Assembly (NCBI RefSeq): GCF_003073045.1
Contig: NC_037594.1
Span: 21,148,927-21,212,926, forward strand
From: Pomacea canaliculata
Lineage: Eukaryota; Mollusca; Gastropoda; Architaenioglossa; Ampullariidae
Length of the DNA stretch: 64,000 nucleotides
Reading direction: 5' to 3'
Shown one piece after another: positions 1,307-37,739 of this stretch. The notes under the pieces are model-generated. The model saw nothing but the letters and a program-made list of their open reading frames with translations. It did not search any database and had not been told where the DNA came from. A program made the position numbers and the translations under genes. Each line of letters starts with the position of its first letter. The first letter of the stretch is position 1.

Positions 1307-4300
1307 TCAGTACTCAAAACAAGGGAACCGGGCACTCATTGGGTCTAGCAGATCTACCAAGAAGTAAATTGTCCCAGCCATGCCTGTACAAAAAACAAAG
1401 TGAAATTTATTCATATTCCTTAAGACACTATTAGTAACTTAGCAGTACTCACTCTAATACCCACACTATCTCTTGCTCTTTGTGTCCTTCCCTTTCACAG
1501 TCACTACAGTGAAAGTAATTATAAGCTTGTTAGTTTTACTGTTAAATATCATTAACACAATGAACAATTAAATGCCAGTATTAATAGCTCTGGCTACTGG
1601 ATGTAGTGCTAACTATAATTTTTTCACACAGATTAATGCACTTTATATGTCGATATCACATTTAGGCAGCTCATTTTCGCTGGTTAAATCACATATTTTA
1701 TTAAAAAGAAATGAAAAAAATAAAAATGCTCCAACGTTTATAACCAGTTTGAATGTCAGAAATGTCAGAGCTTGGCATTTAACAACCAGAAAGGTTTGTG
1801 TTCTTCTGAGCTGGACAAATGTCTATTTAAGCAGGAGAAGCATAAGAAGTAATTTGCTTTTATATTTGGTCTTTTTGTCATTAAGAATAGTCCTTTCAAA
1901 ATGAAGATGAAATGCACAGCTACTTCCAAGAAGCTATCTTACCTTCAAACATTGAGAAGGGAGTATCTGGTATTCTACAGCCATGTTTTCCATAATCAAA
2001 ACACCACTCTGCAAACTACCAGCAGAATGTCAAAAGATACAGTCATGTTCCGTGCAATCAACGAATTCTAACAATAAACAGTACTATTCTTCAACTTCAA
2101 AAATAACAGTAAAGTATCATACAGAAGCCCTTGTTTGATGAAACTATAAAAAGTTATTTTAAATGCACACAAAGAAAATGTTTGAATCTCAGAAGGAAGT
2201 TATAAATGCTAACAGAACAAAGCAGTAAATGATAGTAAAGGCCCCTCAAGAGTGCCAAGTACTGATGATGAATACTCTCTCACTAACCAATGGTTGTGGA
2301 ATTATTTGAAAATTACTGACATCACACCCCCCAAAGAACCATACTTTACGTATTCTTACAGACCTTGCAGGCCCTATACAAGTATTTCTTGTCATGTGTG
2401 AGATGGAACAGTGTAAGGAAGGCATAGGCATTGCCTGCTGCTCCATGACAAAGGCCATAACCTTTCTTCAGCAAACCACGTTTCCATACTACATTACCAC
2501 ATTCCTCTGCTGCATCTAGGTACTCCTTTTTCTTGTAAGTCTGAAAACATATTTATGCCAATTTTTACAGCATGCAGTTTGCACTTATTAAAAAGAAAAC
2601 ATACACACACAACTTTCTGACACAGAATGACACTTATATTATTATTATTATTGCCCTTCGCACCTCCTGGTGCATAGGCCATCGACGCCAGTTTACTGTT
2701 GTCGATGTTTTAGTAGCAAGGATATGTTTTTACGGGGTGGGGGTGCTGGCCCCACGCCCAACCCTCCTACTTTTTCAGCCGGGCTTGGGACCGTCATTGG
2801 CGGAGAGCAGCCAGCCCTATAAACAGGTGCCACGTGCAGAGAAAGAACAGCATGCCCGAGACGAGAAATGAACTCAGGGCAGCCAACCTTCACTGTATTG
2901 GTGACAGGCGCTAACAGCGCTAACCGTTGCGCCACCGGGCCGCTTACAGAATGACACTGCCAGAAGTAAAATCAAATAAATGAAGACATAAAGCAATTAA
3001 GCCAAATATTTAATGAACAGCTAAAATCTATGTGACGATATAGTCAAATAATCCCTTTCCCATCATCAAAATGCCCACCACCACCACTATCAAATATTTC
3101 ACACCACCTCAAAAAACAGAAGCAAGGTGATTAAGAAAAATATGTAAATTTCATCCTCTCCATTCGGCCCATCTATTCATTATTTCTCCGGTAACAAAGT
3201 ATGTGATTAGCACCTGTGATCAATGAACGCCATGAACAGTGTGATACATCATGCTAGTACACCAATCACAACACTGCCAGCAATAAACACCAAACAGAGA
3301 ACAACATTTTGGATTATTCAGATACTGAAAGTCTGCATTTATCATGCTATAGTAGCAGTTTTTTAGAACCAGAGGAAGCTGTACAACCATTTATATAACC
3401 ATACAAGAAAGGGAGTTTCTATGTATCAGTTTAGATCTTCAGCAATTCTAAAATAAATATAAAATGAACATGCTAAGCGCAACTTAGCAAAATCATCCAA
3501 TAGAGTCTACAGCATGATAAGTATGAAAAAGCATACTCTGTACTAGCAAACTTTCTTCTTGAAAACCTTTATTTAAAATAATTAAATAAATATGTGACTT
3601 TGGCTTTGTAACAAATGAAAACATCCTTGCCTGGTAGGCTAGAGCAAACATGGCTACCCAGCCTGGCGCCCCATGGCACCAGTGCACCAGGCGATCATCG
3701 CTGTCACCTACAACAGCTGGATAGTTGCCTGACGGGAATCGAAGAGAAAGCATGAAGTCTATGCATGGCTGCACCAGTGATTCAATGTGCGGCCGAACTT
3801 CTGGTTCTTTAACCTTTTGAAATGAATCAGAAATGGTAAGACATCTCTGAATAAAATATGCTGTTTCTCTCAGTCCATCAGTTCATTCTATACTGAAAGT
3901 TCCATCCACAAGCCCATTGTTTCCTGATTCATCCATTGTCTCCCCCTTTATTTCTTGTAGATCATCTACATTTTTAAATCAAAACTTCCAAAACAATGTT
4001 TACACTTTCTTTGATGTAGTTCTAAAGTGAAATTTATTAACTATCTGCAAAGGCCATCTTTTGTGCAGTTCCAATTAATGTAAATGTTATTGCAATGCAA
4101 TTGTAAGCTTACCAAAAGCAGTGTGTAGAAAATGCCAGCCAAGCCATGTGCTGCTCCCAAATAGTACTGGTCATACCATGAGTACATCAGTGGATGCTGC
4201 CATTTCTCCTTTTGTGACAATGTCTTGCCAGAATAGAGTATTGCTTTCGTCACCTAAAAAAATTCAAATGGCCTCCTTCATGAATGCTTGGTCCGTAACT

Positions 4301-7300
4301 GTATTTTCTGATTACAAAGAAAAGTAAGTTAAAAATAAAAATAAACTAGCACAGTGATTGCAGCCATGCACTTCCATATTTCATATGCCTAAAAGCAAAA
4401 ACAAATACCATGAAACTCTTAGAGAAACAGACTAGACTTCAAACATCCACTTTTTCAAAAATGTAAATGATAGGATTAAGGGTAGCCAATACCTTTCTCT
4501 GCATATTCTTATCTCCTTACCCCACACTCCCTCCCCCAGCCCCCCTCCAAAAATACTAAATAACAACAGACAATGAAATCGTGAAATGGTGCCAGTTAAC
4601 ACTAATGATTATTCTCCAAAATCCTTAACAGAAATTCATATGAAAAGAAAACAAATGGCTAAAACATGAGGAACGTCTCTTTTAAGATCAGAGAGCTAAA
4701 TTATTTCATGAGAAAGTGTTAAGCAGTGGCGTACCAAGTAACTTATCCCCTCATGTTGCCCAGTCACCAATGTCAGTTAAAATATTTGCTTATGCTTACA
4801 GCAAATCAATTAACATGTTAAGAAAGAGCAAAGATTTGGGGCTTGTGAAAATAACACCGTTGACATATTTAACACTTACAAAACACAAATTTTAATAATA
4901 ATTTCTATAAATACAACACCTTCTCCTCAGCACCCAGTCATCCACATTCAATATCACAAACTAAACAAGTCATCAACAGCTCAACCCATCCACCAAAAAC
5001 AAACGCAAAACTGAAGAAGCCCAGAGCAAAAAAAAAAAAAAATGTGGCTATATTGCTATCACGATTTCTTTGCATGTTGACTAATAAGTTAAGTGTGCTA
5101 AATTTAATCTGAGCTTTTTCCTAAGCTCTTCCTCTAGACAAGAATGTTGCCCCCACATATGCCACTGTTGTGAAGAGAACCCCATCCCACAACCTACACT
5201 GACGATGACTTCTTTCTTGATACTGTCAGCACCAAGATGTTTCTGCACAAACATTACAGCTGCAAGGTAGCCAGCTCGCCCATACAAGTGTTCATTAGGC
5301 ATTTTTCGATCCTTGCAGACATGTTCCTGCAATGACTCCAGTCTGCAAATAAAATGAATGCCATTTTCAAATCTGCTCAAGATCAGAATGTTCTCGTAAA
5401 ATTGGATAGTGTAGATGAGAATATGTCCCTAAATAAGGCTTTTGTTTGTAAGCACTACTTTATCTTTGTCAGCATTTTTCAGCTCCTTTCCAGATACTTG
5501 CACAAGCGTTTCTGATGTATTGATGAACATATATTGCAAACGATTCCATTAGAAAAGAACAACAAATCTTTACACATGGACACATTAACAACCAAATTTC
5601 TTTACATCCTACCTCTCTACACATTCTTTGCTTGTTTTGGAATCACCAAGCTTTGCATGAACTACAGCTGCCACAGCCAGCACACCAGCATCTCCACACA
5701 AGAAGGAATGTACACCAGATTTCAAATGCTTCAAAGCTGGTTTCAAATATACAGCTGCTGTTTCAAGAAAGTGCTGACGTTCCTCTGCATGGCCAAACTT
5801 TTCATAAAGTTGTAGGAACAACAATGCAAACCCTGAAGAAGAATAAATATCACCAGTTTTGCAGCTTTTCACATAAGCCATTCTAAATATTTTTTTCAAT
5901 CTTGACTTTTTAAAATTATTCTTGGTTTGGAAGTGGATAACAACAACAGCTAAACCCAGATACACATAAAACAGCTCTTTCAAGACATGTGAAACACAGC
6001 TGTGGAATGGGTATATGACTCTGTGAAGGGTTAGGCAAGATAAGGCAGTGAGGAAAGAAAAAATAGAAGGACACCACCCTCACAAAAGAGTTGGCCCAAA
6101 AGTAATGTCTGTAACACCTCACAGCCAACAATAAAAAGGTTACAGGACTACTTCAGTACAGGAAATCCATAACTGGATTATAATAGACTTCTATGCAGTT
6201 TAGATGAGGCCATCACCTCATGCTTAGTGAATTAGTGTCTTTGCATGCACATCAGTTTTAATTCACATGCATTTTGCTTTTTTACAAATGGTAGATTACA
6301 AATATAACTAAATAAAAAAAATCGCTTTTATTAAAGATCAAGAATAACAGACTTTAAAAAATTACTTTTAGTGTTCTTTGATGCAAGGAAGAAAAATGCA
6401 GAAGGAATGTAAGAAGAATAAATTGAAAGGTAAACATTTTGGAAATAGAATATTTTTAACATTTGAGTGAAAACAACTGAGAAAAATAAGTCAATCAAAA
6501 TGCACTTTAAGTCAGCAAAACTAACTGTGTTATTTCTATTACTATTTCTAGGTGTATTATTTCAGACAAGATTTGTGCTTATCATTTTTATTAGGGCATA
6601 TGATGCTTGGCACGAGATCAATGCATATCAGCTATCCTAACAAGACTGAAGGCATGTACTCTTCCTGCAATTAAGTGGAAGTTGCTTAGGATCCGCAAGA
6701 ACAAATCTGAACACATTACACACTTTCTTAACTCATGCAAACAAGAAACTGCAAAACAAAAACTGCATTATGATGAAAATTTGGTAAACTTTTTATGACT
6801 TGGGTTTCAACTTAGATATGCTCCCAGAAAATTCTTTTAAATCTTCAACTCTTTAAAGTAAATGTGAAGTGTGCATACATAAATTATGTGCATTTAGGAA
6901 TTTTTCAATCTTAATTATAAGTTTCAGACGAACTTTCTGCAAAGCTTTGGATAAAGTTTAATTTACTAGAGGACTGGTGTTTGTATCATATATTCTGTGC
7001 TTAGTACTTATTGTAGTTGTATGCGCTTTGAATCTTTATAGAGATTTAGAGGGTTAAAAATATTACAACCATTACAATGTTTTCTCACCAGTCTGGCCAG
7101 TATATATTGAGTAATCATCTTTCTTAATTGTTTGCCGAATGCCCCCTTGTAGTCTAGTCATCAGATCCTGGATGCTACAACGCACTTTCTCCGCAAAGGC
7201 TTCATCCATCTGAAAGAAAATAGGACTAAACATGTCTTTACTCTGATCGAAGATATTAATATTTGTGCCTTTTGTAACTTCTGCAAATTTAAATTTTATT

Positions 7301-7508
7301 TTTGCAATTACACACCGATAAATACAAATGCGCAGGACTGTGCCAACTGCCGTATCTGCACAACGGATGGCGAAGCAAAATCGTGGTTAATGCTGAAAGA
7401 AAAAAAAATGCAAACTTCAACTCGGAAAGTTACCTTGCCAGCATCGTCCAGCAATTTTTCGCCATGATAATCTGGATATGGGTTAGAAAATTCGCGTCGG
7501 TTGCTCAT
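1307..7508 (-). CDS. LANCL1: LanC-like protein, tandem copy A (9 coding exons)
   Basis: Exons read 7508-7434, 7209-7089, 5832-5613, 5342-5198, 4253-4113, 3813-3631, 2540-2364, 2015-1943 and 1383-1307 (stop TGA). The phases join exactly to 403 residues, against 399 in human LANCL1. Recognisable blocks in order are NPYPDYHGEKLL at the start, FLCGDAG, LYGRAGYL, GAAHGLAG, WCHGAPGW, GYGLCHGAAGN and HGCRIPDTPFS. The zinc ligands of the family (Cys of WCHG; Cys and His of LCHG) are present, as are the Lys before GYGLC and the Arg of HGCR. LanC-like proteins are known cytosolic, glutathione-binding enzymes that add glutathione to dehydrated residues in damaged proteins. The start at 7508 follows homology; an in-frame ATG at 7703 would add 65 basic residues. 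The intron after exon 6 has a GC donor. The symbol is by family; which paralogue of LANCL1/2/3 it matches is not settled. Confidence 0.93.
2640..2942 (-). repeat. tRNA-derived SINE, longest copy
   Basis: Read on the minus strand, it begins with a tRNA-like head (GGTGGCGCAACGGTTAGCGC, then a box-B-like TGAGTTCATTTCTCG). It continues through a shared body and ends in CACCAGGAGGTGCGAAGGGC followed by an (AAT)n tail at 2640-2655. The head has a short internal repeat of the GCTAAC/AGCGC segment. It lies in the LANCL copy A intron between exons 6 and 7. The same family recurs at 7.8, 9.3, 14.7 and 20.9 kb. Confidence 0.85.
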
Positions 7509-7808
7509 CGTTTCACCAGCAAAACAACGACTTTCATGTTCTATGCCGATTGTTTCCCTTTCGACAAGTAGCTTCCCTTTAACTGTTGCACGGCGTCGTT
7601 CGGGAAATCGCCAGCAGTACGCGGTCACTCCGCGCGTTAGTCCGTTTATCCGTGACCAGGAGTGGATCCGACCACGTACAAGAATCAATTCAGCTATAGC
7701 CATGAGTCGACTTTAACACGATGACACAAGCTGCTTTTCAAATTTTGTTGGTAACTATTTGCAAACAAGACGAAAACACTATGACTATGGCGGACACATC
7801 TTCTCAGG

Positions 7809-7990
7809 GTACCCGGTGGCGCAAAGGTTAGCGCTTGTCACCAATACACCCATCTTGTATCATCCTGGGTTCAGCTCTCGTCTCGGGGACGCTGTTCTTT
7901 CTCCATGTGGCCTCAGTTTACACGGTTGGCTGCCATGCCATGATATATCCTACGTTGCTGGCTCGGCGTAAAACACCGATTCACCCCCTC
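7809..7990 (+). repeat. tRNA-derived SINE (same family), upstream of LANCL copy A
   Basis: Plus-strand copy starting at the head motif CCGGTGGCGCAAAGGTTAGC and running through GTTCAGCTCTCGTCTCGGGG to GCTGGCTCGGCGTAAAACACC. It sits 300 bases upstream of the LANCL copy A start codon, outside the gene. The (AAT)n tail seen in the 2.6 kb copy is absent, and a C-rich stretch follows instead. Confidence 0.8.
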
Positions 7991-9263
7991 CCTCCTTCTC
8001 AGGGTGCCCCACTTCCACCCTCTACCTTTAGTCATCGCTCTTCCATGCAGATTCTTACACCTGGAGGTCCTTTAGGAGTCAGGTTCATGCCTTTTGATTT
8101 TGGCGTCACTGCATCTCAGGCTACTTTGTGATCTAAGAAGAATACATTTTTTTTCTTTTTTTGGGGGTTGGGGTGGGGGGTATACGTTGCGCATTTTAAC
8201 AGCGAATGTTCTAAACCTATAATTTTTTTTTTTTTTTACTTTGGTCTTACACACGATCCTTTAGAATTTATGTTCACACCCATTGTGAGAGGGAACCACC
8301 GCGATATCAAAGTGGTCCTAAGGCTACATTTTCAAGTAGCATGCAAACCATTAAGAAAAACACACAAACATTACCCAATATTAAGATGTTTGTTGTACAT
8401 GCAATCATAATTTGAAAATCACACCTAAATCTTAAAACAGCAATGAACTCTGAAATATTTCACACATACTGACATTTATTTCATAAACACAATAAACAAT
8501 GCACCTAAAATGCATATATGTTCATGGTAAAAAATGTTAACAGAAGAGCTTTTGCAAAAGACAATTTGATTATTAGTCAAGATACTGAATCCAGTGAATG
8601 CTATGACAATAGAGATTTCTTTAAGCATCCTTTGTACAAATAAGGAAACTGAAAAATCAGATATAGCTACCTCTTCAGCACTATCTTGTATCACTAAACA
8701 CATTCTGGAACATATGGCTTATGAACATTTAGCTGCAAAAGAATGACTAGAGATTCTGAAATAAGCCGGAGAAGATATGTCGGTCACACTGTTTGCACTG
8801 ATCTCTTGACATATAGATGACGAAGCCAAAAGCAGAAATACATTTTTTATGAATAGCTGCGATCAGCAGTGGGACGGAGGAGGGTGCTCTACAGATCACA
8901 ATCTGTGCAGATCAAGAAAACATAGTAACACCTATCCATATTACAATTTTATTGACAAGGTGCAGTTTTTTATAAATACGAATTCCGTTTTGCTAAGTAG
9001 TTTCTTTGAAAACTGTTGATAAATTGTTAATATTAGTTTAAGAATAGTCAGGCCACAAAAACAAAAATGATCTATTCAGAATCTAGTGCATTATATGCAA
9101 ATTAAGCATGACACCACATAAATTGTGCACAACTACTATTAAATAAAAGCACAATGTGTGTTTGAAATACAAAGTCACAAATACTGTGCAAAGATTATCT
9201 TATGTATAACAAATATTTTTTTTTAAACTTGATCATCATATTAAGTACACTACAGCTGATGAG

Positions 9264-9454
9264 TTTGGGGTGGGGAGAGAATTGGTGTTTTACATGGAGC
9301 CAGCAACTTAGGCCATATCCAACCAAAGCAGCCATCCCTGTAAATAGGCACCACATGCAGAGAAAGAACAGTATGCCTGAGATGAGAGCTGAACCCATGA
9401 CAGCCAACCTTTATTGGTAAGAGGCACTAACCGTTGTACCACTGGACCATCCCC
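9264..9454 (-). repeat. tRNA-derived SINE with intact target duplication
   Basis: Minus-strand copy of the same SINE. The 12-base direct repeat ACAGCTGATGAG occurs on both sides (9252-9263 and 9455-9466), as expected for LINE-mediated insertion. The identical flanks suggest a rather recent insertion. It lies between the two LANCL genes, just past the 3' end of copy B. Confidence 0.85.
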
Positions 9455-9886
9455 ACAGCTGATGAGAACTTTCTACCTAACATATATACTGAATAATAAA
9501 GGCATACCATTTGCTTTCAAAATGTTTAGTTCACATGGTTCTTACCTGGTACTAAAATAACTTTATAACAATTTCACAAAAGCCTCAAAATACAATAACA
9601 GTTGAACTTCAGCAATAACCTCAAAAGGTGAAACTTAATGAGCAAGATTCATGCATGCACACATACATATGTGTACACAAAGCCATTTCCAATAGACTTA
9701 CAATCATTGCCTTTGTCTTGAATTACACAGACATTTTGCAGTAAAAGATGCTTTCAAAGATAATTGTCCTTAGATGGTACATAAACCTGGGCAGATGTAA
9801 ATTAAAAGTTGTAATGATAAAATATATTAAATGAACAATTTTGGAATATCTTGTTGCATATTTATGAAAAATATTTCTTCTGATAT

Positions 9887-12800
9887 TCAGTATTCATAAG
9901 CAGGAAATCTTGCATTTAGAGGATCCAGCATGTCCACAAGAAAGTAGATAGTCCCAGCAATCCCTAGTATGAGATCAGAAGAGATAGTTTGATTTGGCTG
10001 TATACTGGCATAAAATTTTGACATTCTCTTTCTCTTCCTTCCTTCCTCCCCTACCCCACAATAAACGTAAACAGTTTGTGCATAAAATGTTTTTAAAGCA
10101 ACTGATCTTAACTGATAAATTTAGTTTTACATTTTATTAAATTTATTACTTTATAATCCATTAAATACAAAAGTAACAAAACTGCAGAATATTCTCAGGG
10201 CCAGTTTTGTGTGAGGGTGGTGTACATCTCTCTCTCAGTGCCTTACCTTTACCAACCCTCTGTGGTGGAGTCACTCCCAACAGCTAGGATGATTGTGGTA
10301 AGTTTGCTGCGCTGCAAGGGTATTAAACAGGCACACCTCTGGGTTTGGATGCCAATGCTTTAACCATATGGCTATCTGTTTTCCCATTGAAGACTTGCTG
10401 TGAAATGCTCAGGTGTAAGCAGCTGACAATCATTACTTACAAACAGTAAAAATAATATAATTACCTTCAAACAATGAAAATGGATGGTCGGGTGTAAAGG
10501 ACTGATGCCTTCCATAATCACAACACCATTCTGCAAACTGAAATGAGAACACATATAACTATACAAATTAAATAGATATGAACCTCTAGGGGCTATTTTG
10601 GAAAACCATCTTGTTTCATAACTGGTCCAGGAAAATGTGTGTAAAATTATATCCTGACTTAGAGTCAGAGGCGCAAATCGGTTTGATTTTCTTAACTGTT
10701 TCATTTTTCACATCATTATTTCCCTTTTGATATCATATACCAGAAAATGCTCACCTTGCATGCCCGGTACAAGTGTTTCTGGTTCTGTGTGAGGCGGAAC
10801 AGTGCAAGAAAAGAATAGGCATTGCCTGCTGCCCCATGACAAAGACCTAAGCCCTTCTTCAGCAAACCACGTTGCCATACCACATCACAGCACTGCTCTG
10901 CTGCTTGGAGGTACTTCTTGTCATTATATGTCTACAGAATACACACACCAACACCAATATTTATAACAATAGAAATATACTTTTACCATTTTGGTTTTTG
11001 GTTTGTTTTTTTTGTTAAATGTGGATTACTGGTTTCAATGACTAAGAGCTTCACACTTTTCAATGCCTGCATTTAATTTAAGGAGCTAAGAAATTAAAAT
11101 AAGTCTTTTGTACCCACCAACATGACCCTTGTGATGCTTACCTTGTAAGCAGTAACAAACATGTAGACCCACCCTGGAGCACCATGGCACCACTGAACAA
11201 GTCGATCATGAACAATACTGCCAACTGAAGATGGAAAGTTTCCTGACGGATACTGAAGAGTCAGCATGTAGTCTACACAAGCCTTCACGGTATTCTCTAT
11301 CTGAGGCCGGACCTCTGGGTACTTTACCTGTTTTGTCAAATAAGACATCTCGACTGCCAATATCATTTCTCTCTCTCTGAAATTGTCACAATCTCTCAAC
11401 ATCAAGAAGCAGGAAAAAAAAATAAAACACCCAAGGCCAAGCCAATATAAATTTTTCTATATAAACTGCATCAATCAGCAACAGGATTGTACATCATAAC
11501 AATTTTTAATAAATTCTTTTCAGAAAATGTCTGAAGGGAAAACCATACATAAAATAAACATATTTAGAACTTAATGCATTCAACATAAATCTGGACGAAC
11601 ATATAGAGCCAAATGTGATGATCTGCCTTACTAGAAGAAGTGTATACAAGATGCCAGCAAGTCCATGTGCTGCACCAAGGTACTTTTTTTCATGCCATTC
11701 ATACATGAGTGGTGGACAGCCCCGCTGCTGTGCTGCCATAGACTGACCAGAATCGAGTAAAGCTTTTGTCACCTTCAACAAAAAATACAGTTTGAAAATT
11801 CTTTCATGCTGGTATTTTCATCAACAGTTAAGCAAACAATTCTTGAAAATGTTTAGACTTATCAGGATAAGGACAAATACCAGAATGCTTTCATATATCT
11901 ATTCATAGGAGTTAAATAATGAAGTATCATGTTGGAAAATTGGGTCCATTTACTTATTCAGCAGTTTTACAATAGTTTAAAGGGGAAGGGGCCTTTTTTT
12001 ATTTTTGCCATAAATAGCATCAGGAGAAAGAGTTGCAGAGCGGAGGGGTGAGTGAGAAAAAAGAGAAGCATTATTTTCAGAATGCGTAAGATTATAACAG
12101 GAAGCTTTACAGTGAATCCAAAAATTTGCTTATGATTCTAAACCATTTTGAAACAAAGCAAACCCTAGGAAGTATACTCTTAACATTGAGGTTTTTTAAA
12201 AACTAATATAACATATTGCTTATGATCAGTCTTGAAGCTGTCAAATATAATCATTTTTAACAAGCAACCAGTACCTTAATAATGACTTCCCTGTCTACTT
12301 TGTCCATACCAAGATGATGCTGAACAAAAAGTAAGGCTGACAGGTAACCTGCCCGTCCATACAGATGCTCATCTGGAAGAGTCTGATCTCGAATAACATT
12401 GATGTGCATTGACTCCAGTCTAAATTCAAAGTGAAGAAAAAGAAGAATGAGAAAATTCTTTAATAAAATTGGCAAGACTTACTGAGGAGTTTACAGGTAG
12501 TGAAAGCTACATTTCACATTCATCTGGGGTATGGAACAGAACCAGGTAGTTAATATTCCAGACTATTTTTCATTCTAGAATTGGTATTACAGTACATCTT
12601 TTTCTCTATTGGGAGCTCCAATAACTAATAAACTATAACAAAACTATTCACCCATAATTATCAGAGGCACACCATAATTAGTGTTTTGTGTTACAGATAA
12701 GAAAACTGAAGGTTTATTTGCCAGGTCTGTTCAAAAGTTCTATTGCACTTGATAAGAGGGACTTAATTAAAACACTTTTCTTGCTAATCTTCAGCTAGAG

Positions 12801-14128
12801 GCTAGCATTTAGAAATGGTGAGGTAGCAGGCAAGACAGATCTGTGATAATACTGACAGCTTTTAATCTCACAGCCTATGTTTGTGTATGTTTTCATGTGT
12901 ATGTGCCAGCATGTATGTGTATGTGCCAGCTTGTATAGTCCTGAAAGCTGCATCAAACTCCAGTGAATAATAATCATTGCAAGGATAAGTAGCAATGACT
13001 CCATTACTGTAGATAAAATTATAGCTGTTGATAAATACAACAAATGTAAAATAAGAATCGGTACATTGCATTTTACTATATTTCTTCTAAACCCATGGAA
13101 ACCAGGCAAACATACACACACATACCTTTTCTCTGCCTTAAGCTGCTCTTAAACATGGATTGCAATATCAGAAGGTTAATTACCTTGATATGCACTGTGC
13201 AGCACTTCGCTCATCACCAAGTTTGCTATAAACATAAGCCCCTAGTGCCAAAGGTCCAGCATCACCACAGAGAAATGTGTGCTTGCGACCCTGTGGGTGT
13301 GCAAGTGGTTCTCTGAGGTGTTCCAAGGCTTTCTGTAAGTATGTATCCTCTGTATCACTGCTGTCTCCCCATCTTTTGGAATTATGCAGGTGGACAAACA
13401 AAAATGCATAACCTAGAAAAAAAATGTTTTCTTCTATGTAAATGAAATTTAGACATTAATTTATAATAACACTAGAAGACAAAATCTAAATTCCTATTTG
13501 CACATAAGCCTACATCAATAACTTACATATACTTACCACTAGTTCCAGTATATACTGAAAAGTTTGGGCGACCTGAGGTATTCTCCTGGCACAACCCTAC
13601 TCCTTCAAAATGTAGTAATAGTCTCCCAATTGTTTCCTTTAATCGTTCTGCAACACTGCCTATAAGCTTGTAGAAAAGAAATGAAACACCTTAATGACAG
13701 GAATCATTTAAAGACACTAAAGTGTTCTTAACTAAAATGAAATAAAAATTTTATTTATAACCTTGCTGTGAAACTCAAAACATGGTTTCTGATAACACTA
13801 TTGATATCCGATTTTCACGACTATAGTGCTTTCATTTTAATTGCTGGGAGGGGGAGGACTATAACCCCTCTACACCTTCATTAATGATCAAAGGTCGATT
13901 TAAATGTTTTACGACAAAAATATAAGACTGGTGAATATTATACTGCTATGTTGATGCAATGATCATTTCACGGTTTCACTCGAACAAAGAGTAAAGACTG
14001 AGTCTGCATGCGATCAATATAGTACGAGATTAAAATACGATTAACACCTTTTTATCTTCTCCAAGGAGCTTTTCTCCGTTGTAATCTTTAAAGCTGTTCG
14101 TGTGATAACGGGATTCGTCTACAGCCAT
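9887..14128 (-). CDS. LANCL1: LanC-like protein, tandem copy B (9 coding exons)
   Basis: Exons read 14128-14048, 13666-13537, 13412-13184, 12419-12275, 11772-11632, 11327-11142, 10931-10755, 10537-10465 and 9963-9887 (stop TGA), joining to 412 residues. Intron positions and phases match copy A one for one; exons 4, 5, 7, 8 and 9 even have equal lengths, so the pair arose by tandem duplication. The motifs FLCGDAGPLALG, LYGRAGYL, GAAHGLAG, WCHGAPGW and GLCHGAAGN are kept, hence both parts of the zinc site. Exon 8 is odd: where copy A has HGCRIPD this copy reads HQSFTPD, so the Arg that aligns with human LANCL1 R364 is a Phe. Here the exon 6 donor is a normal GT. The start at 14128 (MAVDESRYHTNSF) is the only suitable ATG before the conserved FKDYNGEKLL. 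The protein is probably still folded and zinc-bound, with altered chemistry. Confidence 0.92.
10185..10380 (-). repeat. Second tRNA-like SINE type
   Basis: Read on the minus strand, 10380-10300 gives ATAGCCATATGGTTAAAGC (box-A-like) and then CATTGGCATCCAAACCC with AGAGGTG, the pattern of a tRNA-headed SINE. Its body differs from the main SINE family of the window. It lies in the last intron of LANCL copy B. The far end near 10185 is a guess. Confidence 0.5.
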
Positions 14129-14670
14129 TGCAATAAAACCTTCGTTACACAACCGTCTACAATCAGCTAACCGGCAATAGCAGACGAGAATCTCTGGAAA
14201 ACCGGAAGTACGTTAGATTTGCAGGATGTCTTTCCGGTGCAGCGGAGAATGTATTCTGTACAAAACATATACATGTATACTTCCCAAGGTATTATTTTTA
14301 AAAAAAAGACAAAACAAGCTACAACATTCTCTAAGTAACTTTACGCCTTGTCAGAGCACTTTCTTGTCTTAGTTCTAATTTCGTTCTCTGCTTACTTGTT
14401 CGCTTTGAGTGGTCAAAGGGGGTAGCATCGCTTATTTAAATGGCACACTGTTTAATACATTATAGAAGTGTGCATTTACAATACATTTAGTACAGCATAA
14501 AAGAATCCTTGGAGGCAGTTATAAGGTGGATGTATCTAGTGTCTTATGCCCAATTAGTGAGTAAAGCAAATTAGCCCGTTTTTAACTTGCACCACATGAT
14601 GAAAACGAATTGAGCGTCCAAAGTGATAGCCCACGATACCCGGTGCTCATTATCTTGCATTGGCTACCGA

Positions 14671-14881: not shown

Positions 14882-16800
14882 ACCACCTTACAGACTCGCG
14901 CATCCGTCTAACTCTAAACACATACGAATTTATTGCGTCACCTGAAAGTGGTGGGTGGGATGTGTTCGATGAGACTGCATACTCAGCAAAGCACATTATC
15001 AATAATCGAATACGGGATAGAAACCAAGCTAGAGCCCTTCCATCAGTAGCTGTTCTTCGATCCCTGTAATGTTCGCCATTGAAATCACGTAAGTGTATTC
15101 CGGTTATGTTTAATCTGAATCAAAATGTGTTCTTCGCTAAAAGTGGTCATGTATGCACCTCCTAAAAAATTTTCTCTTGAGGTCAGTCACTTGTTCGTTC
15201 TGATGATGTGCGAGAATTCCTTCAGAAGCTTATTTAAGATTGCAAAATCGTCTCCAGACTATCGATCATGTGTGCGTGCGTACAAGCTTACTTGGGCCAG
15301 AGATTTTTGATTGGGACGAACAGGAATCAATTTTTATTTTCTTGATAAAAGATGTGAGTTTCAAGAAAACGCAGACCTTTTGTTGTGTTTTTGATGGAAT
15401 CGCAATTTCCGAGAAATGCGCAGAGGAAAATGACTTCCATCTTCTCATCCCCGCCACCCAATTTTTTTTTTTTAACCTCGTTTTCTGCAAATTGTGTAGA
15501 GATGTAGAGTACATGTGGCTTGTAATATACGTCTCTCCTGTACCACTGTTTTGTACTTCGCGCTCACACTTCCTTCAGTCAACAGTTGGTCTGTCTGGTG
15601 CCACTGGCCTGCTAATTACAAGTCCTTTGATCTACACTAAAGTGTTCAGCGCATATCTCGTCATCCCCAGCACTTCACTTAGGAAGGTTGTAGACGGGCT
15701 CCATTCCAACTTCTAGTGAAGTGGAAAGTTGTTACGCATTTCACTCGCTCACTCTTTCTCTCATTCCCCGCACCTCTCTTTCTTACACACCACAACTGCT
15801 GTCGTCGGTTTAGTGATATTGACTTTTAGCTGCTCGATCGTCGTTGAATATCTCAAGGACTATGATCAGCACAATTTTTTTTTCTTTTATATGGAGCCAC
15901 AGACATCTTAGAACAATACTAACATCATTAGTAAAATATGCTCCGGAGCAAACGTAGCCTACGAATGAAAATAATATTTCTGCTAAATTCAATGCAGATT
16001 GGACAAGTAGTATAGGATTTGCTTGGGGTCCGACTCAGAACGACAAAAACAAAGCCAGCTTGCTCCATCACGCTCTGCATAGCTTATGATAGTATGCTAG
16101 TGCTGTAGAATGAATAAATAAGTCTTCGTTGTCGTTGACGTTGTCGTCATAATCATCATCGTCGTCGTCGGGAATTCTACATAAAATGTAGCAGGACGGC
16201 GCTGTTAGACCACGAACTATATAAGTCCATGGATAGACTCATACTGAAAGCCGTTAAACATAGTCCGAGTCTTAAAATCACGTCATCAGAATGTTAACAT
16301 TTACGTCATGCCACAGATTCTTCCCATTCAGTGATGTCAACATAAGCGTAAAAAGTGACAATGGTGACGATAATTATCTTCTTCAATAAAATAAACATTT
16401 ATACATATTTATATGTTTTCAGATCCCTACTGCCTCATCCACCTTAACCTACTACCTCCTTCCTCCCTCATATAATAATAGAAGTATATAAACTTAATAT
16501 AACTATAAACTTAGTTCTGTTCTCTCTCTTTCGATTGGTTCTACGCAGTCATCGAGAAACTATGGTTACTGTTGTTGTAGGGACAATTCGCAAAGAACTG
16601 TGGCATTGCTACATTAAAGCGAGTTTTAAATTGATATCTTCGAGGTCGGCCTGCTATTTTCAGTAGCTTCACGGGGCGCATTAAGGCTGAAATAATCGAA
16701 AAAAAAATTGTCGCTGATTTGAGCAGTCAAATACTTTTTTACTTTTTTACTTTTCTTACAAAAGGAAGTCGTGTGATGGTAACGTAAAGCCGTAGCAACG
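14882..16800. other. Spacer between LANCL copy B and the H1-like gene
   Basis: No exon could be supported. The longest open frame (15240-15716) has no recognisable motif and looks like chance. There is a GTC/GTT-rich stretch at about 16125-16170 and several TGACG or ACGTCA half-sites between 16270 and 16310. The right half belongs to the upstream region of the gene that starts near 16.88 kb. Confidence 0.4.
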
Positions 16801-16852
16801 AAGTCTGACGTTGCCTAGGGGATGGTTGCACGGTCGTCGGTTGTCTCCGCGT

Positions 16853-16859
16853 TATAAAA
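16853..16859 (+). promoter_or_regulatory. TATA box of the protamine-like gene
   Basis: TATAAAA lies 84 bases before the ATG at 16943, so transcription would start near 16883 with a leader of about 60 bases. A TGACG half-site (16805) lies 48 bases upstream. The box lies downstream of an earlier in-frame ATG (16811), which argues against that ATG being the real start. Confidence 0.7.
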
Positions 16860-16942
16860 ACGATGCACCAGCGCCGGTCGCAGCATATGCTTCTGGTACC
16901 TCGTCCGAGTGCAGCTGGTCGTTTCCAAAACCAAAAGCGGAG

Positions 16943-17452
16943 ATGCGGAGCGGCAAGGCAACTCGGACCAGCTGTGTTCGAAATCAGAAGTCCACGGCAG
17001 AGGAGTCCAACAAGTTGACAGTGAAGCAGGTCACTTCAGTCCTTACACGGCTGCGAGACCGCGGTGGATCCCGCTACACGGACATCAAGAATGCCATCTT
17101 TGAAGAGACAGGCGTGGAGCCCCGTCCCTTCGAGTTGAAGGCGCTCTTATTCCGAGGCATAAAGAAAGGAGTCATCAAAAGCAGAAATAGCGACGATTCG
17201 CTTTCTTCGGCGCTTTGCGTGCTGACCAAGAGATTAAAATCGCAACTCGCGGTCTTTGCGAAGCAGTTCGAGCGCACCGTAACTAAAAACGGCAGCCTTG
17301 ATCGGCGGCATCAACGGCGTTGCAGGAGACGGCGTCGGCGTAGTCGTAGTCGTCGTCGACGTCGTAGTCGTCGTCGTCGGCGACGACGAAGAAGAAGACG
17401 AGGACGACGCAGACGAAGACGCCGCCGGAGAAGGAGAAGGCGAAGGCGATAG
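16943..17452 (+). CDS. Histone H1-like / protamine-like sperm nuclear basic protein
   Basis: An intronless frame of 169 residues from MRSGKATRTS. Residues about 25-97 form an H1-type winged helix: LTVKQVTSVLTRLRDRGGSR, then YTDIKNAIFEETGVEPRPFE, then GIKKGVI before SALCVLTKRL; the conserved pattern is VL..L..RGGS...I..AI and LK..L..GIKKGVI. Residues 121-169 are a tail with 42 Arg among 49 residues, broken only by His, Gln, Cys, three Ser and one Gly. This is the build of molluscan protamine-like (PL) proteins, which descend from H1 and pack sperm DNA. The ATG at 16943 is chosen over 16811 because the TATA box lies between them. The mRNA ends at a histone stem-loop. The tail is coded mainly by CGN codons in its first half and by AGR mixed with CGN later, and looks grown by triplet slippage. 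Expression in the male germ line is inferred, not seen. Confidence 0.85.
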   Translation: MRSGKATRTSCVRNQKSTAEESNKLTVKQVTSVLTRLRDRGGSRYTDIKNAIFEETGVEPRPFELKALLFRGIKKGVIKSRNSDDSLSSALCVLTKRLKSQLAVFAKQFERTVTKNGSLDRRHQRRCRRRRRRSRSRRRRRSRRRRRRRRRRRGRRRRRRRRRRRRRRR

Positions 17453-17527
17453 GCGATTAGGTAAAAAAAAAAAAAATCTCGCTTCGTGAAAAAATTTTCT
17501 AAAATAGCCCCAAAAATATTTCTTCAA

Positions 17528-17543
17528 GGTCCTTTTCAGGACC
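17528..17543 (+). terminator. Histone mRNA 3' stem-loop
   Basis: GGTCCTTTTCAGGACC is a perfect 6-bp stem with loop TTTC, matching the metazoan replication-dependent histone consensus (GGYYYTTYTNARRRCC). It lies 75 bases after the stop codon, the usual spacing. A clean purine-rich U7 snRNA site is not obvious downstream (GCCGGAGA is the nearest candidate). ATTAAA variants near 17683 could give a back-up polyadenylated end. Confidence 0.85.
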
Positions 17544-17559: not shown

Positions 17560-19739
17560 CTGGGTCAGAATGTTTAACGGTATTTAATGTTTTAAGTAGT
17601 TCGCACTGTAACTTGACGTTGAAATTCAGTTGGCGAAGGGTCAGACTTTCCTAGCCCCTTGTAAATATAATATGTAAATATTATTAAATATTAAATATGT
17701 AAATTATGTAAATCAGTAAAATATCATGTTAAATATAATTATTGTTTACAATTCAATTGTCATTCAATTCAGTAACGTAATACAAACATTAGGACAAGTG
17801 CACTAGGAAAAAGCCACGTTGAAAACCCGCAGAATATTGTGATGTAGATGTAATTTCAAAAGCTGATTCACAATTTCTTGATAAAGTAAATTCATTCGCT
17901 CTATTGCTATCCTTTCCTTATTTTTTTTTAATGACCAAACCAACCGGAAGGGAGTACAGCTTGTCAGTGAGGCACGTCCTGCGCAGTTTGCCCATTTTGG
18001 GTGTTCTGTGACATTCGCCAAGGGAGTGTGAATCGCTGCACTTTACACAGCATGCAGCCGACCTGTGTCTAAACTTTTGGCAATTGAACCAATGTAATGG
18101 TGACGGGATGAAAAAAGAGCCACTTTTATCCGAAGATATCCAATTTGGGGGGTTTGGAAGAGAGGTTAGAAAGTACGTATTTGTAGGAATGGTTTTTCCA
18201 TCTCTTTTTAAGAGATGGCAGTCTATCAGTCTCTATTAAAAAAAAAAAAGTTTATCGTATCAATACCTTGACTTTCCTATACCATGCCAAAACCGTATTT
18301 ATACAAAAATTTAATGCAGACCCCATATAAAAGTATTGGCTGGATTTGAGCATCACCAATGTACCAAAACAGTTTAAGAATACCTTTAACTCCCATCTTT
18401 GCATTTTTGGCTGTATGTTCCAATGCATCTTGTGGAGAAAACACAAATATTTCTATGCATTAAATTTTTAAAATAGAATTGGAAAAGAACCATTTTTTCC
18501 TACAAGATCTAAAACCACCATTTCGAAAAATCAAGACATTTGATTTATGAAGGCTGACAGCAAGACACAGCTGAAGTGGTTATTGTTCAGTAGGAACAGG
18601 GCATACAACTGAGGATTTCCTCTGGTCTTAACAGTGGCGTCCAACCTTTTCTTGCTCTGGACATGATATAAAAACTTGCGGGCCAGAATATGGTGGTTTT
18701 GCCTTGATGTTCAAAGCTAACAGTGTGTTACAAATAAAATAGTGCACTCCCTAGAACAATAAATGAACGTTACCTTCCCATCTCGCACCAACAATCTATA
18801 ACACTATAGTATTTTTCAAACATCATTTATTTGAAAAAAAAGTTCCGCATAAAAACTTTCTATAGGATACTGCCAATGGATAAGCACACAAGGCAAGGTT
18901 CTAATCCCTTGCCTTACACATTTCATGTCTAGCAGCACAGTCACTTTTTCATGATTACGTGAAATGAACATATGGTAATGTACTCCAAAACAAACTTGTA
19001 TACCTAATACTGGAATGTATGGAAACTCTGTACTAATGTTGAACTGGCCGCTCTATTCCAATTATCGAGCCTATCAATTATTAATCGCATTGTTGATTGA
19101 GTCATCTCTTATTCTAATACTATTTTATCCTTCCTTGTCACTTCCAACAATTTATCCTATTATTTGTATGTCTACACTCCTTCATGCGTATAATCCACAG
19201 TTACAACTCATGACGACCAACTACCACTTGGTGCATCCATCCGATCATAAATCTCTACATAAGGCCGGTCGCAACAGATAATACTTAAGATATATCCGGC
19301 TTAAACCCTGCATATAAGGAGTTTATGCGAACTATGTCTTACGCAGCACCCTTCTTACCTCGTGCTTTCAAACTATCGTTTAATGGAGACCCCACATGCG
19401 CTTCACCTACTACCTAATCTGATTCCTAAGCAAGTCACAGTTGCAAAGACACCAAGGAGAAGTGATTAACAAATCCAAATCCATCCAATATAAAAGACCA
19501 AACCACAGCTGCTGAGAGCTTGATTTGAAAATGTACAAGCTCAGTTCTGCTGCTGAAAGGGCTAAATCACAAAAAACTGGCAGTCAGCCATGTGAAAATA
19601 TAGATCTCACAGCCATCACATTTTGAGTCACAGGAGGCTTAATTTACAAAGTGATGCCAAATGTCCCTCTCGGTCTTTTCTTTAAGCAAGCTAAATAGTC
19701 TTTTGTTAACACACAATCAGGATGTATGATGAAAGCTGT
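17560..19739. other. Spacer and HSP60 3' untranslated region
   Basis: No coding exon found. 18198-18218 is a perfect 9-bp hairpin (CCATCTCTT, 3-base loop, AAGAGATGG). At about 18632 CAGTGGCGTCCAACCTTTTC resembles the terminal repeat of a hAT MITE, but I found no partner end. A minus-strand AATAAA at 18826-18831 could end the HSP60 transcript, which would give a 3' UTR of about 0.9 kb. Confidence 0.4.
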
Positions 19740-25700: not shown

Positions 25701-28700
25701 GCATTGGTAACAAAGAAAACAGAAAAATATATTTAACACTATAGAACTATGCTGACAGGGTTCCCAGGGATCAGGGATGGTGCCAAAAAAGGACCTTAAA
25801 AGTACCTTTCATGCATTCGTAAGGACCTAAGTGACAGTCATCAATGCTTAAGTTTTTCTCTTGTGTGGTCGGAAAGATGTATTATTTATGAATCTGTGGT
25901 CTTCTCTATGTTCTCAAATACATGTATTTCTAGTAATAAATAATCAAAGAGTTAATTTTGATGCCTGTCTGCCATATTTAGATTAGATAACTTAAAAAGT
26001 GTCCTTAGCGTGCTGATAACACACCGTTAATGTTCCAAGTTTTCTAGAAATCTAAGTAATAATAATTGCAAAACATGAAAGCCATTCTTTGGTGTAATAC
26101 AAAAGTCAGTTCATGTCTCTCTCTCTCGCACACACACTCTAACGGGAAGAGAGAGAGAAATAGAGCTATGCACAGTAGTACTAGCTGATCAAAGTTCAAG
26201 AAAGAGTAAGTTTCTAAAGGCCTTTTGAAAAAAGAGTGTTTTTTGCGAATACGGAAGGGCAACTAGTGTTGTACAGATGTGTAGACCAAACATGCGGCGA
26301 AAAATCGTCGGTATTTTGCGCCAAAGTCGACTCCGGAAATAAATTTGTGGTAATATTTTATCGATAAAAGGACTTAAAAGGGTCACAGAGAAAATGTAAG
26401 GACCTGTGTGAGAATTTGAAAGGACCGCATGGCAAATAAAAGGACTTAAAAGGCCTTTCGGCGAAAATTCAATATAAAAGGACTTAAAAGGACCTTGCAA
26501 GGACCTGGGAACCCTGTATGCAGCACATGGGAATTTTCTTAATTAATATACAGCTTTAATATAATAAAAATGTGTGCAAACGCTTTTCTGGATCCTTACC
26601 AACCTTTTGCTGTGTTGATGAAGTATGGAGAGATGTATCCTCGGTCAAACTTCATTCCCTCAATCACTTCCAACTCATCTTTCAAAGTTTTTCCATCCTG
26701 AATCAAAAACATTCTCCGATTAATGATAAAAAACATTTATACCTATGATTGACCAAGACACTCATGCTAATTGTCTGGAAAAAAGGGTTTAATGTCAATC
26801 ATGTACCCGTGGTATTTCAGTATGAACAAAGTTTATGAAGACACCATTGACAAAACAAACTGGTCTTAAAAACTAAGTAAACACCCACACATGTTTGTTT
26901 TTTTTTTTTGGCAGAAGGCCTAGAATCTGCTTGATTCTACTAAAGTTTTATAAATTGATTTACAAAAAGCATGTGCAACTCTTTAATATTAAAAGCCAAA
27001 ACATAACATGTTGCACTGTCAACTTTCAGAATTGCAACTTTTGTACACTACAATCTGAAATGGAAACAGGCCTTCGTGTTGCACCTTAGAGATCTAGTAA
27101 GGACACAAGATGTCATTACCAGAGCAAATTAGGTGCTAATGCTAGCACTACAGCTATTTTTGAATGTTGGATCAAAATTAGGTCAATAACTATATAGCAG
27201 TTTAAAGAGAATTGGTAAATGTATAAATTGTATCCATCCTTTTGCCACAAAAATTACCAAGATTTATTACCTTAACAGTGATGACACCATCTCTTCCAAT
27301 TTTTTTCATGGCTCCAGATATTAAGTCTCCAACAGCTCGATCACCATTTGCTGATATGGTAGCCACCTAGAATAAAAAAAAATATTTCCATTACAATCAT
27401 TTATCTTATGCCATTCTCAAAATGATTTCCCAATGAAAAAAAAAAAATAAGATCCACCAGTTATGCTAAACACAAGAGAGGGTCAGAATAATCAAACAAT
27501 TCAAAGATAAGTCACTTTCAACAAAATTTTGATCAATTACCAAAAGAAAAAAATATTGATATTAAAAACATATCAAATAAAACCAAATCCGTGAACTGCA
27601 TACTTAAACCTGCTTAGGCATACCTGTGCTATCTCTTCTGGCGTGGTAACAGGTTTGGACATCTGCTTCAACTGTTCAACAACTGCATCAACAGCCATCA
27701 TAACACCTGAGAGAACAGAAAAATATCGATAACAAATTGATGCACTTCATAGCTGCATATGCTGTGCCAGATCTTCAAACAAGCTTATTTCTCTCAGCCC
27801 CATACAGTTACAATCTTTGATTTGAATTAACTACAAAACAAAAACTATATTCTTAAAATTCACGTCAGTGTATTTAAAAAAAGTGCTCTTTAAAACGCAG
27901 TATCACCGATAGTTCTTGTTAATGTATTTAATAGATAAATTTTTTTAAAATACTGGTCGAAATTTTCATTTGTTGCTTCTCCAGGTTTGACTAGTAACCA
28001 CGCGGGCTCGATGTTAGTGAAAGCATTAAAGCACATTACCTTAATAACACTATAGAAACTGATGCTAGTTCACAGTGCTATCTTTTTTTGTTATACTTGC
28101 CAAAACAAGATGGGAAAAATGTAAGCAAGTACTGCTCTAAGAGACAATTACCTTTCCGTATTTCAATGGGATTTGCCCCATCACTTATCCTGGCAAAGCC
28201 TTCTTTTGCAATAGCTCGGGCAAGCACTGTTGCTGTTGTTGTTCCATCTCCAGCTTCTTCATTTGTATTATTAGCAACATCTTGAACGAGTTTTGCACCA
28301 ATGTTCTGATACTTGTCCTTAAGTTCAATGCCTTTTGCAACTGTCACACCATCTTTTGTGATCTTCGGACTTCCCCAGCTTTGTTCCAAGATAACATTTC
28401 TTCCCTTTAAAAAAAAAAAAAAAATAAATAAATAAAAATAGGCTGCTTTTCAAGTTTATCCATATGCTGTTCCTTTTGGTTAAGTTGAAATTTCACTTTA
28501 GGATCAATGAACAAGTTAAATTAGCAAAAGAAGTTCTATCTCCCCGCCAAAGTTGGCCTAGTAGCTCCCTAGCCATTGCAGTAGTTATGGCATTCAAAAC
28601 AGAACCAGAACTTAAGCAAACTGTTTTGGCAGAATTAAAGCTTGCTTTTCATAACACATCATCCAATCAACTATCTTTCAAAATGACTACCAATGTAAAT

Positions 28701-28998
28701 TGCTATAAGAGTGCTTACACAATTACAATTCTCTAAACAAACTGGTCACACCAACCCGCTCAAAGGAATAAAAAGTGACTATCAAAGCACATCAGATTTC
28801 AATATCAAAATCAACAAATTTTTACGAAACCTTTGGTCCCATGGTAACAGCTACAGCATCTGCTAACAAATCAACCCCCTGAAGCATAAGAGCTCTAGCA
28901 TCTGCACCAAATTTAAGATCTTTGGCATAGCATCTAGCTAGTGATGGGGCAAACTTCCTGGCAACTGCCGATCGTAGGATGTTTGGAAGTCGGTACAT
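19740..28998 (-). CDS. HSPD1: HSP60 mitochondrial chaperonin (12 coding exons; exon 12 disrupted)
   Basis: Exons 28998-28831, 28404-28152, 27706-27624, 27366-27271, 26697-26604, 25330-25162, 22776-22677, 21810-21703, 21251-21114, 20673-20499, 20235-20023 and 19901-19740. The product opens with a basic presequence ([20 protein letters not shown]) and continues [11 protein letters not shown]. The ATP-site block [14 protein letters not shown], the apical segment [23 protein letters not shown] and a GGM-repeat C-terminus are all present. It folds imported proteins in the matrix with HSP10. A noncoding first exon is likely, since an acceptor (TTTTGTGCAG) lies just before the start codon. Numbering coding exons from the ATG, the 11th (20235-20023; called exon 12 here, counting the leader exon) enters as [12 protein letters not shown] and leaves as [12 protein letters not shown] in a different frame, so the joined reading is one base off (1759 bases). 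The other exons look normal, with two weak donors (GTTTCG, GTTGGT). Confidence 0.9.
20853..21044 (-). repeat. tRNA-derived SINE in an HSP60 intron
   Basis: Minus-strand copy of the main SINE, with the head at about 21040 (GGCGCAACGGTTAGCGCC). It is flanked by TGCATAAAAA on both sides (20843-20852 and 21045-21054), an intact 10-base target duplication. It lies between HSP60 coding exons at 21114 and 20673. Confidence 0.88.
23211..23794. repeat. Pair of direct repeats in a large HSP60 intron
   Basis: TTAATTCATGTAGCACC followed by TTTGCATACTCTGC and AGAGGGAAAAGCAGATGCA (about 23210-23281) recurs in diverged form at about 23729-23794 (AATTCATGTAGCACC, then CAAAGGGAAGAGCAGATGCA). The copies are some 520 bases apart, which suggests an old segmental duplication or two pieces of one element. 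I cannot name a family. Confidence 0.5.
25756..26516. mobile_element. 761-bp hAT-like element with terminal inverted repeats
   Basis: Ends are CAGGGTTCCCAGG (25756-25768) and its exact complement CCTGGGAACCCTG (26504-26516). The flanking 8-mers TATGCTGA and TATGCAGC agree at six of eight positions, as for an 8-base hAT target duplication that has drifted. Both subterminal zones carry AAAGGACTTAAAAGG-type repeats, possibly transposase binding sites. No transposase frame is visible, so it is nonautonomous. It lies in the HSP60 intron between the exons at 26604 and 25330. Confidence 0.75.
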
Positions 28999-37500: not shown

Positions 37501-37739
37501 TGACGATAACTGCCAAATCTTGCTCATCCAACCCTGAATCAGAAGATTTAAAACCAGACTTAGCCAAAAAACTGAAAAATTTAAAAAAGAAGTTAAAACA
37601 GATAGAAGAACTAGAAAATAAGATAAAATCTGGGGAACTAAAAAATCCTGAGAAAGACCAATTAGAAAAAATCAGCAGAAAGAAAGCAATTTTGGAAGAA
37701 ATTGAGGATCTTGAATTAGAGCTGGAAGAATCATCATGA
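34560..37739 (+). CDS. PYM1: PYM homologue, partner of Y14-Mago (3 exons)
   Basis: Exons 34560-34608, 35013-35109 and 37280-37739 (stop TGA) join to 201 residues, against 204 in human PYM1. The N-terminal Mago-Y14 binding block is clear: [18 protein letters not shown] followed by IPQEEVP. The middle has [12 protein letters not shown] and a basic [16 protein letters not shown] stretch. The C-terminal third is a charged coiled coil ([20 protein letters not shown], then [20 protein letters not shown]). PYM removes exon junction complexes from spliced mRNA at the ribosome. The start codon sits in a GCAGCATGG context, and the first exon holds 16 codons. Intron 2 (2.2 kb) contains a dead Tc1/mariner copy. 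AATAAA at 38115-38120 is a candidate polyadenylation signal. Confidence 0.94.
35750..35797 (-). mobile_element. LINE 3'-terminal fragment
   Basis: Read on the minus strand, GCAGCCCTATGCTCCACTGG and its continuation to GACCAAGAAGAAG match the end of the LINE fragment at 51.6 kb (GCAGCCCTATACTCCACTGG). Only the last 45 or so bases are present, a typical strongly 5'-truncated insertion in PYM1 intron 2. Confidence 0.6.
36180..36910 (+). mobile_element. Decayed Tc1/mariner-family transposon
   Basis: Translation in pieces gives blocks typical of Tc1-like transposases: a DNA-binding start with [19 protein letters not shown], then [25 protein letters not shown] and a later region with [11 protein letters not shown]. 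The reading changes frame and has several stops, so no transposase is made. Terminal inverted repeats were not located; the ends given cover only the coding remnant. It lies in PYM1 intron 2 in the same orientation as the gene. Confidence 0.75.

Follow-up and report, generated by a model that had tools for sequence, protein, structure and literature searches.

A candidate protamine-like gene with an arginine-rich tail and a histone-type 3' stem-loop in Pomacea canaliculata

H1-related sperm proteins and the locus

It has long been proposed that protamines arose from histone H1. As a class, the protamine-like (PL) proteins of bivalves and tunicates are rich in both Lys and Arg. Bivalve PL-I and PL-II and tunicate PL are H1-derived sperm proteins, some of which are cleaved to free the basic part (PMC5550673, PMC13148410). 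PL precursors have been defined with a highly basic, Arg/Lys C-terminal stretch of roughly 30-50 residues (PMC13148410). Hymenopteran PL/H1 variants, such as Nv-PL1 and PpH1V1, carry a winged-helix-like region near the N-terminus; their C-terminal half is disordered and includes a basic stretch, and the Nv-PL genes of Nasonia are expressed in testis (PMC13148410). Many protamines are thought to derive from a replication-independent H1/H5 precursor, and H5-like protamine precursors have been described in spiders, i.e., Araneus ventricosus AVEN_19411.1 / GBL99906 and Steatoda nobilis P1 and P2 (PMC11607694).

Here, we analyzed a stretch of 64,000 nucleotides from the gastropod Pomacea canaliculata (hereafter, the window), which contains an uninterrupted open reading frame (ORF) of 169 amino acids on the forward strand (16943..17452; ATG at 16943, TAG at 17450-17452). 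The predicted protein has a computed pI of ~12. Its C-terminus is nearly pure Arg, its N-terminal part carries a putative winged helix, and a histone-type hairpin follows the stop codon. In our assessment, the gene probably encodes a PL sperm nuclear basic protein precursor that combines an H1/H5 winged helix with an Arg-rich C-terminus. An earlier proposal that it is an H1-derived step toward a protamine agrees in part with this reading; the H1 origin is supported by targeted profile tests only, several pairwise comparisons with H1 sequences not being significant (see below).

Among the published architectures compared, the spider precursors appear to be the closest. They and the window gene would share an H1/H5-type winged helix that lacks a C-terminal hairpin and precedes a C-terminal protamine, and a pI of ~12 characterizes the spider precursors and the window protein alike; the protamine is ~6.2 kDa in Araneus and 6.4-6.5 kDa in Steatoda versus 7.26 kDa here (PMC11607694). 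This likeness is drawn from the published description and not from an alignment, and the term stem-loop is absent from that work (PMC11607694). The tail of the window gene lacks Lys, unlike the bivalve and tunicate class. The Pteromalus genes PpH1V1 and PpH1V2 have introns and poly(A) tails, the latter found by RACE (PMC10264595), whereas the window gene has an intronless coding region and a stem-loop. The PL-type architecture is already known in other animals, and the stem-loop is the interesting part of this locus. A literature search that covered few subscription journals found no report of a histone stem-loop on a PL or protamine gene.

Open reading frame, 5' side and arginine tail

The initial annotation described a short intronless gene. 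This holds for the coding region, which is uninterrupted over all 169 codons; the untranslated regions may contain introns. Among the 2,884 ATG starts in the 64-kb window, this is the only one that opens at least 169 codons, which argues against a rival view that there is no functional gene here but either a GTC/CGT trinucleotide repeat within an ORF that arose by chance or an H1-type pseudogene in decay. We consider this view very improbable. It draws some strength from the fact that 11 of these starts (the main ORF among them, nested starts counted apart) open at least 120 codons, and from codon usage, which gives the 16943-17452 frame no support. The score of residues 1-120, 0.015 bits per codon, is ordinary: 13% of random windows do as well, and the stretch has two other frames that outscore the coding frame (0.138 and 0.187), all measured with a small training set of 455 codons from which the gene differs in having third positions far richer in GC (0.65 vs 0.385).

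A TATA-box-like sequence, TATAAAAA, is present, as annotated, at 16853..16860 on the forward strand, 90 nt upstream of the main ATG. Since TATAAA is common in the AT-rich window (62 occurrences on the forward and 48 on the reverse strand), it is informative by position only. Between it and the main start, at 16887, lies an ATG in another frame that the initial annotation does not list; the 43 codons that it opens (16887..17018, forward strand) run past the main start and may reduce or regulate translation of the main ORF.

The window as a whole is depleted of CpG (500-nt median o/e 0.31; TpG+CpA o/e 1.3) and has few CpG-rich peaks, at 7.25, 13.75-17.75 and 45.75 kb, a pattern that suggests a methylated animal genome. 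No gene is assigned to the peak at 45.75 kb. The two highest 500-nt values, 2.0 and 1.66, are on the gene. The region immediately upstream (16601..16850, forward strand) has an o/e of 1.46 against the window median of 0.31, and this signal is independent of the Arg codons because the region is free of them. A CpG-rich promoter within a CpG-depleted genome suggests that the promoter would be unmethylated in the germ line. Together with a TATA box at a suitable distance, the promoter-like CpG peak also speaks against the absence of a functional gene.

The tail comprises residues 121-169 (17303..17449, forward strand), of which 42 of 49 are Arg, exactly as first described; it falls within the published definition of the basic C-terminal stretch of PL precursors and would have a mass of 7.26 kDa if released. 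The remaining residues are three Ser and one each of His, Gln, Cys and Gly, with no Lys. All six Arg codons occur (CGT 11, CGA 9, AGA 8, CGG 7, AGG 4, CGC 3); CGN codons make up 30 and AGR codons 12 of the 49, and no codon is repeated more than three times in a row. The second codon position is G in 47 of the 49 codons and the third is diverse. In addition, AGR accounts for 12 of the 15 AGN codons, as against 16 CGR among the 30 CGN codons (P 0.03). This asymmetry counts against a mere repeat in a chance ORF, and the codon pattern fits selection for Arg better than it fits a newly formed repeat. Across all six frames of the window, stop-free stretches of 49 residues with at least 20 Arg, or at least 26 Arg plus Lys, include one other case; it has 28 Arg and is the complementary strand of the tail DNA itself.

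A GTC-type trinucleotide repeat is found at 16122-16170, 0.8 kb upstream of the gene, and is 61-71% similar to the tail DNA. Repeats of this type may have been the raw material of the Arg tail; the same resemblance speaks for the view of a repeat in a chance ORF.

The tail was also said to have gone from Lys to Arg. It is rich in Arg and devoid of Lys. A frameshift from a Lys tail is said to have been put forward by Lewis in 2004 as a route to an Arg tail; here, the 30 CGN and 12 AGR codons are not what simply shifting the frame of Lys codons would give, and we therefore rejected this route. Several Rfam families (MIR4374, mir-598, veev_FSE and others) matched the tail far below their cut-offs, and these matches were discarded because they are produced by the CGT/CGA repeat.

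An H1-like domain followed by a basic tail would suit any linker-histone variant, and the protein could in principle be a linker-histone-like or other basic nuclear protein whose function is unrelated to sperm, such as a somatic or embryonic H1 variant or an SR-like RNA-binding protein. In the oyster at the gastrula stage, the primordial germ cell cluster expresses a protamine-like histone variant more highly than any other gene, and PL-like genes can therefore act outside sperm (PMC12551290). However, the tail is 86% Arg and free of Lys, which sets it apart from the Lys/Ala/Pro tail found on the H1 encoded in one of our control histone loci (L001, described below), and with only three Ser it is not an RS domain. 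We judge a role of this kind to be quite improbable.

If the gene is a PL precursor, as we prefer, a divergent H1/H5-type winged helix (residues ~22-86) would direct the protein to spermatid chromatin, and the nearly pure Arg C-terminus (42/49) would neutralize DNA phosphate and condense sperm DNA, probably once it has been severed from the rest of the protein around residue 120. Phosphorylation of the three Ser residues of the tail may postpone tight binding, and its single Cys could form a disulphide.

The N-terminal domain

The protein was initially annotated as having an H1-type globular domain. We modeled a putative H1/H5-like winged-helix domain at residues 22-86 (17006..17200, forward strand), and the evidence for it comes from sequence profiles and an AlphaFold2 model. 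Linker_histone (PF00538) scored 13.7 bits with the whole protein, 14.7 bits with residues 1-120 and 16.4 bits (E 0.01) with residues 24-86; none of these three Pfam runs reached the cut-off of 22.4 bits. The H1 of L001, used as a control, scored 95.1 and 98.8 bits. Linker_histone was the best Pfam match for residues 24-86. With residues 1-120 it was outranked by DNA_ligase_A_N, and with the whole protein by DNA_ligase_A_N and Eapp_C, all of these matches being below the Pfam cut-off. A phmmer search against PDB sequences gave two matches at chance level and no histone, and hhalign with a four-row H1 alignment gave a probability of 4.1%.

Profiles built from H1 domains were compared with shuffled sequences. 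The score of the gene with a four-row profile was reached by 11 of 20,000 shuffles, and the gene ranked second of the 688 ORFs in the window (E 0.24). With a five-row profile, 6 of 20,000 shuffles reached its score and it ranked first of the 688 (E 0.098). With a six-domain profile, which includes two sequences entered by hand (the five-row profile includes none), a single shuffle of 20,000 did so and the gene again ranked first of the 688 (E 0.01). The other ORF involved in these rankings, the apparently non-coding 28699-28863, came first with the four-row profile and second with the five- and six-row profiles; we took it as a chance match because it has no Pfam match and is absent among the tblastn matches listed for the gene.

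Pairwise alignments were uneven. The score with the GI domain of Hho1 was reached by 4 of 3,000 shuffles and that with Drosophila H1 by 12 of 3,000, whereas the scores with Arabidopsis H1 (110 of 3,000) and H5 (222 of 3,000) were weak, and those with Hho1 GII (990 of 3,000) and H1.4 (1497 of 3,000) were no better than shuffles. In the alignment with H5, RGGS and GV-K are in common.

Single-sequence AlphaFold2 prediction of residues 22-86 gave a pLDDT of 82 and a pTM of 0.67, with helices at residues 27-40, 45-56 and 62-74 and without a strand or wing hairpin; the model of residues 1-123 was poor (pLDDT 58). Overall, residues ~22-86 are predicted to form a three-helix domain, probably of the winged-helix type. 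None of the Foldseek matches had E <=0.001, and histone H1 was missing from the best 50 of 164 as well as from the best 50 of 170; these two sets held assorted winged-helix and helix-turn-helix proteins, and other folds too. A viral structure library likewise gave no match at E <=0.001, and a search of viral contigs for relatives of residues 17-120 gave 15 pattern matches, none of which was confirmed.

These results bear on a second account of a protamine-type sperm protein, in which the N-terminal part would be a generic domain, three-helix or winged-helix, without H1 ancestry, the 3' hairpin would be due to chance and the mRNA would be polyadenylated. The assorted proteins without H1 among the best 50 Foldseek matches of the longer list, and the sub-threshold Linker_histone scores, are compatible with such an origin. 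On the other hand, Linker_histone is the best Pfam match for residues 24-86, and the profile scores are rarely reached by shuffles. On balance, we regard this account as unlikely and an H1/H5 ancestry of the N-terminal domain as likely. The annotated H1-type domain is plausible though weak: the profile comparisons (1-11 of 20,000 shuffles) and the three-helix model favor it, and the Pfam scores remain below the cut-off.

The 3' hairpin and its surroundings

As in the initial annotation, a histone-type stem-loop, GGTCCTTTTCAGGACC, lies 75 bases downstream of the stop codon, at 17528..17543 on the forward strand. It has the core of the RF00032 family, i.e., a 6-bp stem, a 4-nt loop and the consensus sequence, and shares these, its sense orientation and the intronless coding region with replication-dependent histone genes. 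Nothing else on either strand of the 64 kb matches GGYYCTNHTHARRRCC, which we take to be the histone stem-loop consensus, without a mismatch. Only the perfect match counts, because matches with up to two mismatches (9 in the window) are not above the expected 11.7. A perfect consensus hairpin occurred in 1 of 60,000 simulated 200-nt 3' regions, and any perfect 6-bp/4-nt hairpin in 596 of 5,000 simulations. Folding of the 36 nt around the hairpin gave -9.3 kcal/mol (z -3.2).

Control histone ends were obtained from a histone H4 scan of genome contigs, in which 2 of 145 pattern matches were confirmed; in viral contigs, none of 46 matches was. The first locus, L001 (JAOZOU010000036.1, 1-5437), holds an animal-type quintet of H1, H3, H4, H2A and H2B together with 5S rRNA, U1 and (cut off) U2 genes, and its presence in a contig labelled as a bacterial MAG is apparent contamination. 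The second, L002 (JAAXJP010000450.1, 1-3080), carries histone stem-loops on genes for H2A, H2B, H3 and a partial H4; its contig bears the label of a Rubrivirga MAG, and this too is apparent contamination.

The window hairpin scored 18 bits with Rfam Histone3 (RF00032; E 0.011 in 166 nt), versus 26.9-37.5 bits for the five L001 hairpins and 29.8-34.2 bits for the four of L002. It is below the gathering cut-off of 34 bits because its flanks do not look histone-like; 2 of 5 hairpins in L001 and 3 of 4 in L002 are also below this cut-off. None of the five L001 hairpins matches the strict stem-loop consensus, which is therefore not universal. In L001, the hairpins lie 25-31 nt downstream of the stop, as opposed to 75 nt in the window gene, and precede an A-rich stretch similar to AAAATAAACGA. 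No such stretch follows the window hairpin and AAGAAA is absent from the 748 nt downstream of the stop, both being yardsticks that may differ from the downstream element of the species itself. Two ATTAAA hexamers (17683..17695, forward strand; at 17683 and 17690), ~140 nt downstream of the stem-loop, are possible poly(A) signals, although weak candidates in AT-rich sequence. The window hairpin has a good core in a poor context.

Histone-type RNA processing was initially thought to be retained. The hairpin core agrees with this; the lack of a recognizable downstream element, the wider spacing and the ATTAAA hexamers do not. The missing element and the hexamers, along with flanks unlike the five L001 ends, also speak for a hairpin that arose by chance. 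Against chance stand the rarity of a perfect core in a short 3' region and the improbability that two independent histone hints would meet in one short gene.

Mussel H1 genes reportedly have both a stem-loop and poly(A) signals. A stem-loop in a sperm gene had been called striking for non-dividing cells, but there are precedents: mammalian testis-specific H2A and H2B genes have the stem-loop (PMC5223428), and the clustered histone genes of Oikopleura combine a stem-loop with a poly(A) signal and lack the downstream element (PMC3156773).

For the PL precursor that we favor, the intronless coding region, the position of the TATA box and the 3' stem-loop would be most simply viewed as what is left of the intronless histone H1 gene from which it descends. 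Formation of its 3' end may take place at the stem-loop, before or during meiosis, or through polyadenylation at a more distal site. A bolder version, which we put forward only tentatively and hold to be rather doubtful, is that the gene is a living intermediate: an almost pure poly-arginine protamine with a worn H1 domain, a single exon and a working replication-dependent stem-loop, in which the stem-loop and the downstream poly(A) signal are used in turn before and after meiosis. If so, protamines can arise directly from a replication-type H1 gene. A PL gene that retains a histone stem-loop would indicate a replication-dependent H1 source, instead of or in addition to the replication-independent one, and would allow one to ask how a sperm-packing gene escapes S-phase control. 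With an unused stem-loop, the gene would simply join the known PL precursors.

Elsewhere in the window, two LANC_like (lanthionine synthetase C-like) genes seem to lie in tandem at 3493-14212 on the reverse strand. Both have first-exon-like frames (7308-7712 and 14030-14212) with a D-Y-x-G-E-K-L-L motif, and other CpG peaks of the window lie near these apparent first exons. The frame 37185-37739 (forward strand) had no significant Pfam match and presumably resembles the exon-junction partner PYM/WIBG. Farther along the window are exons of Cpn60 and integrin alpha.
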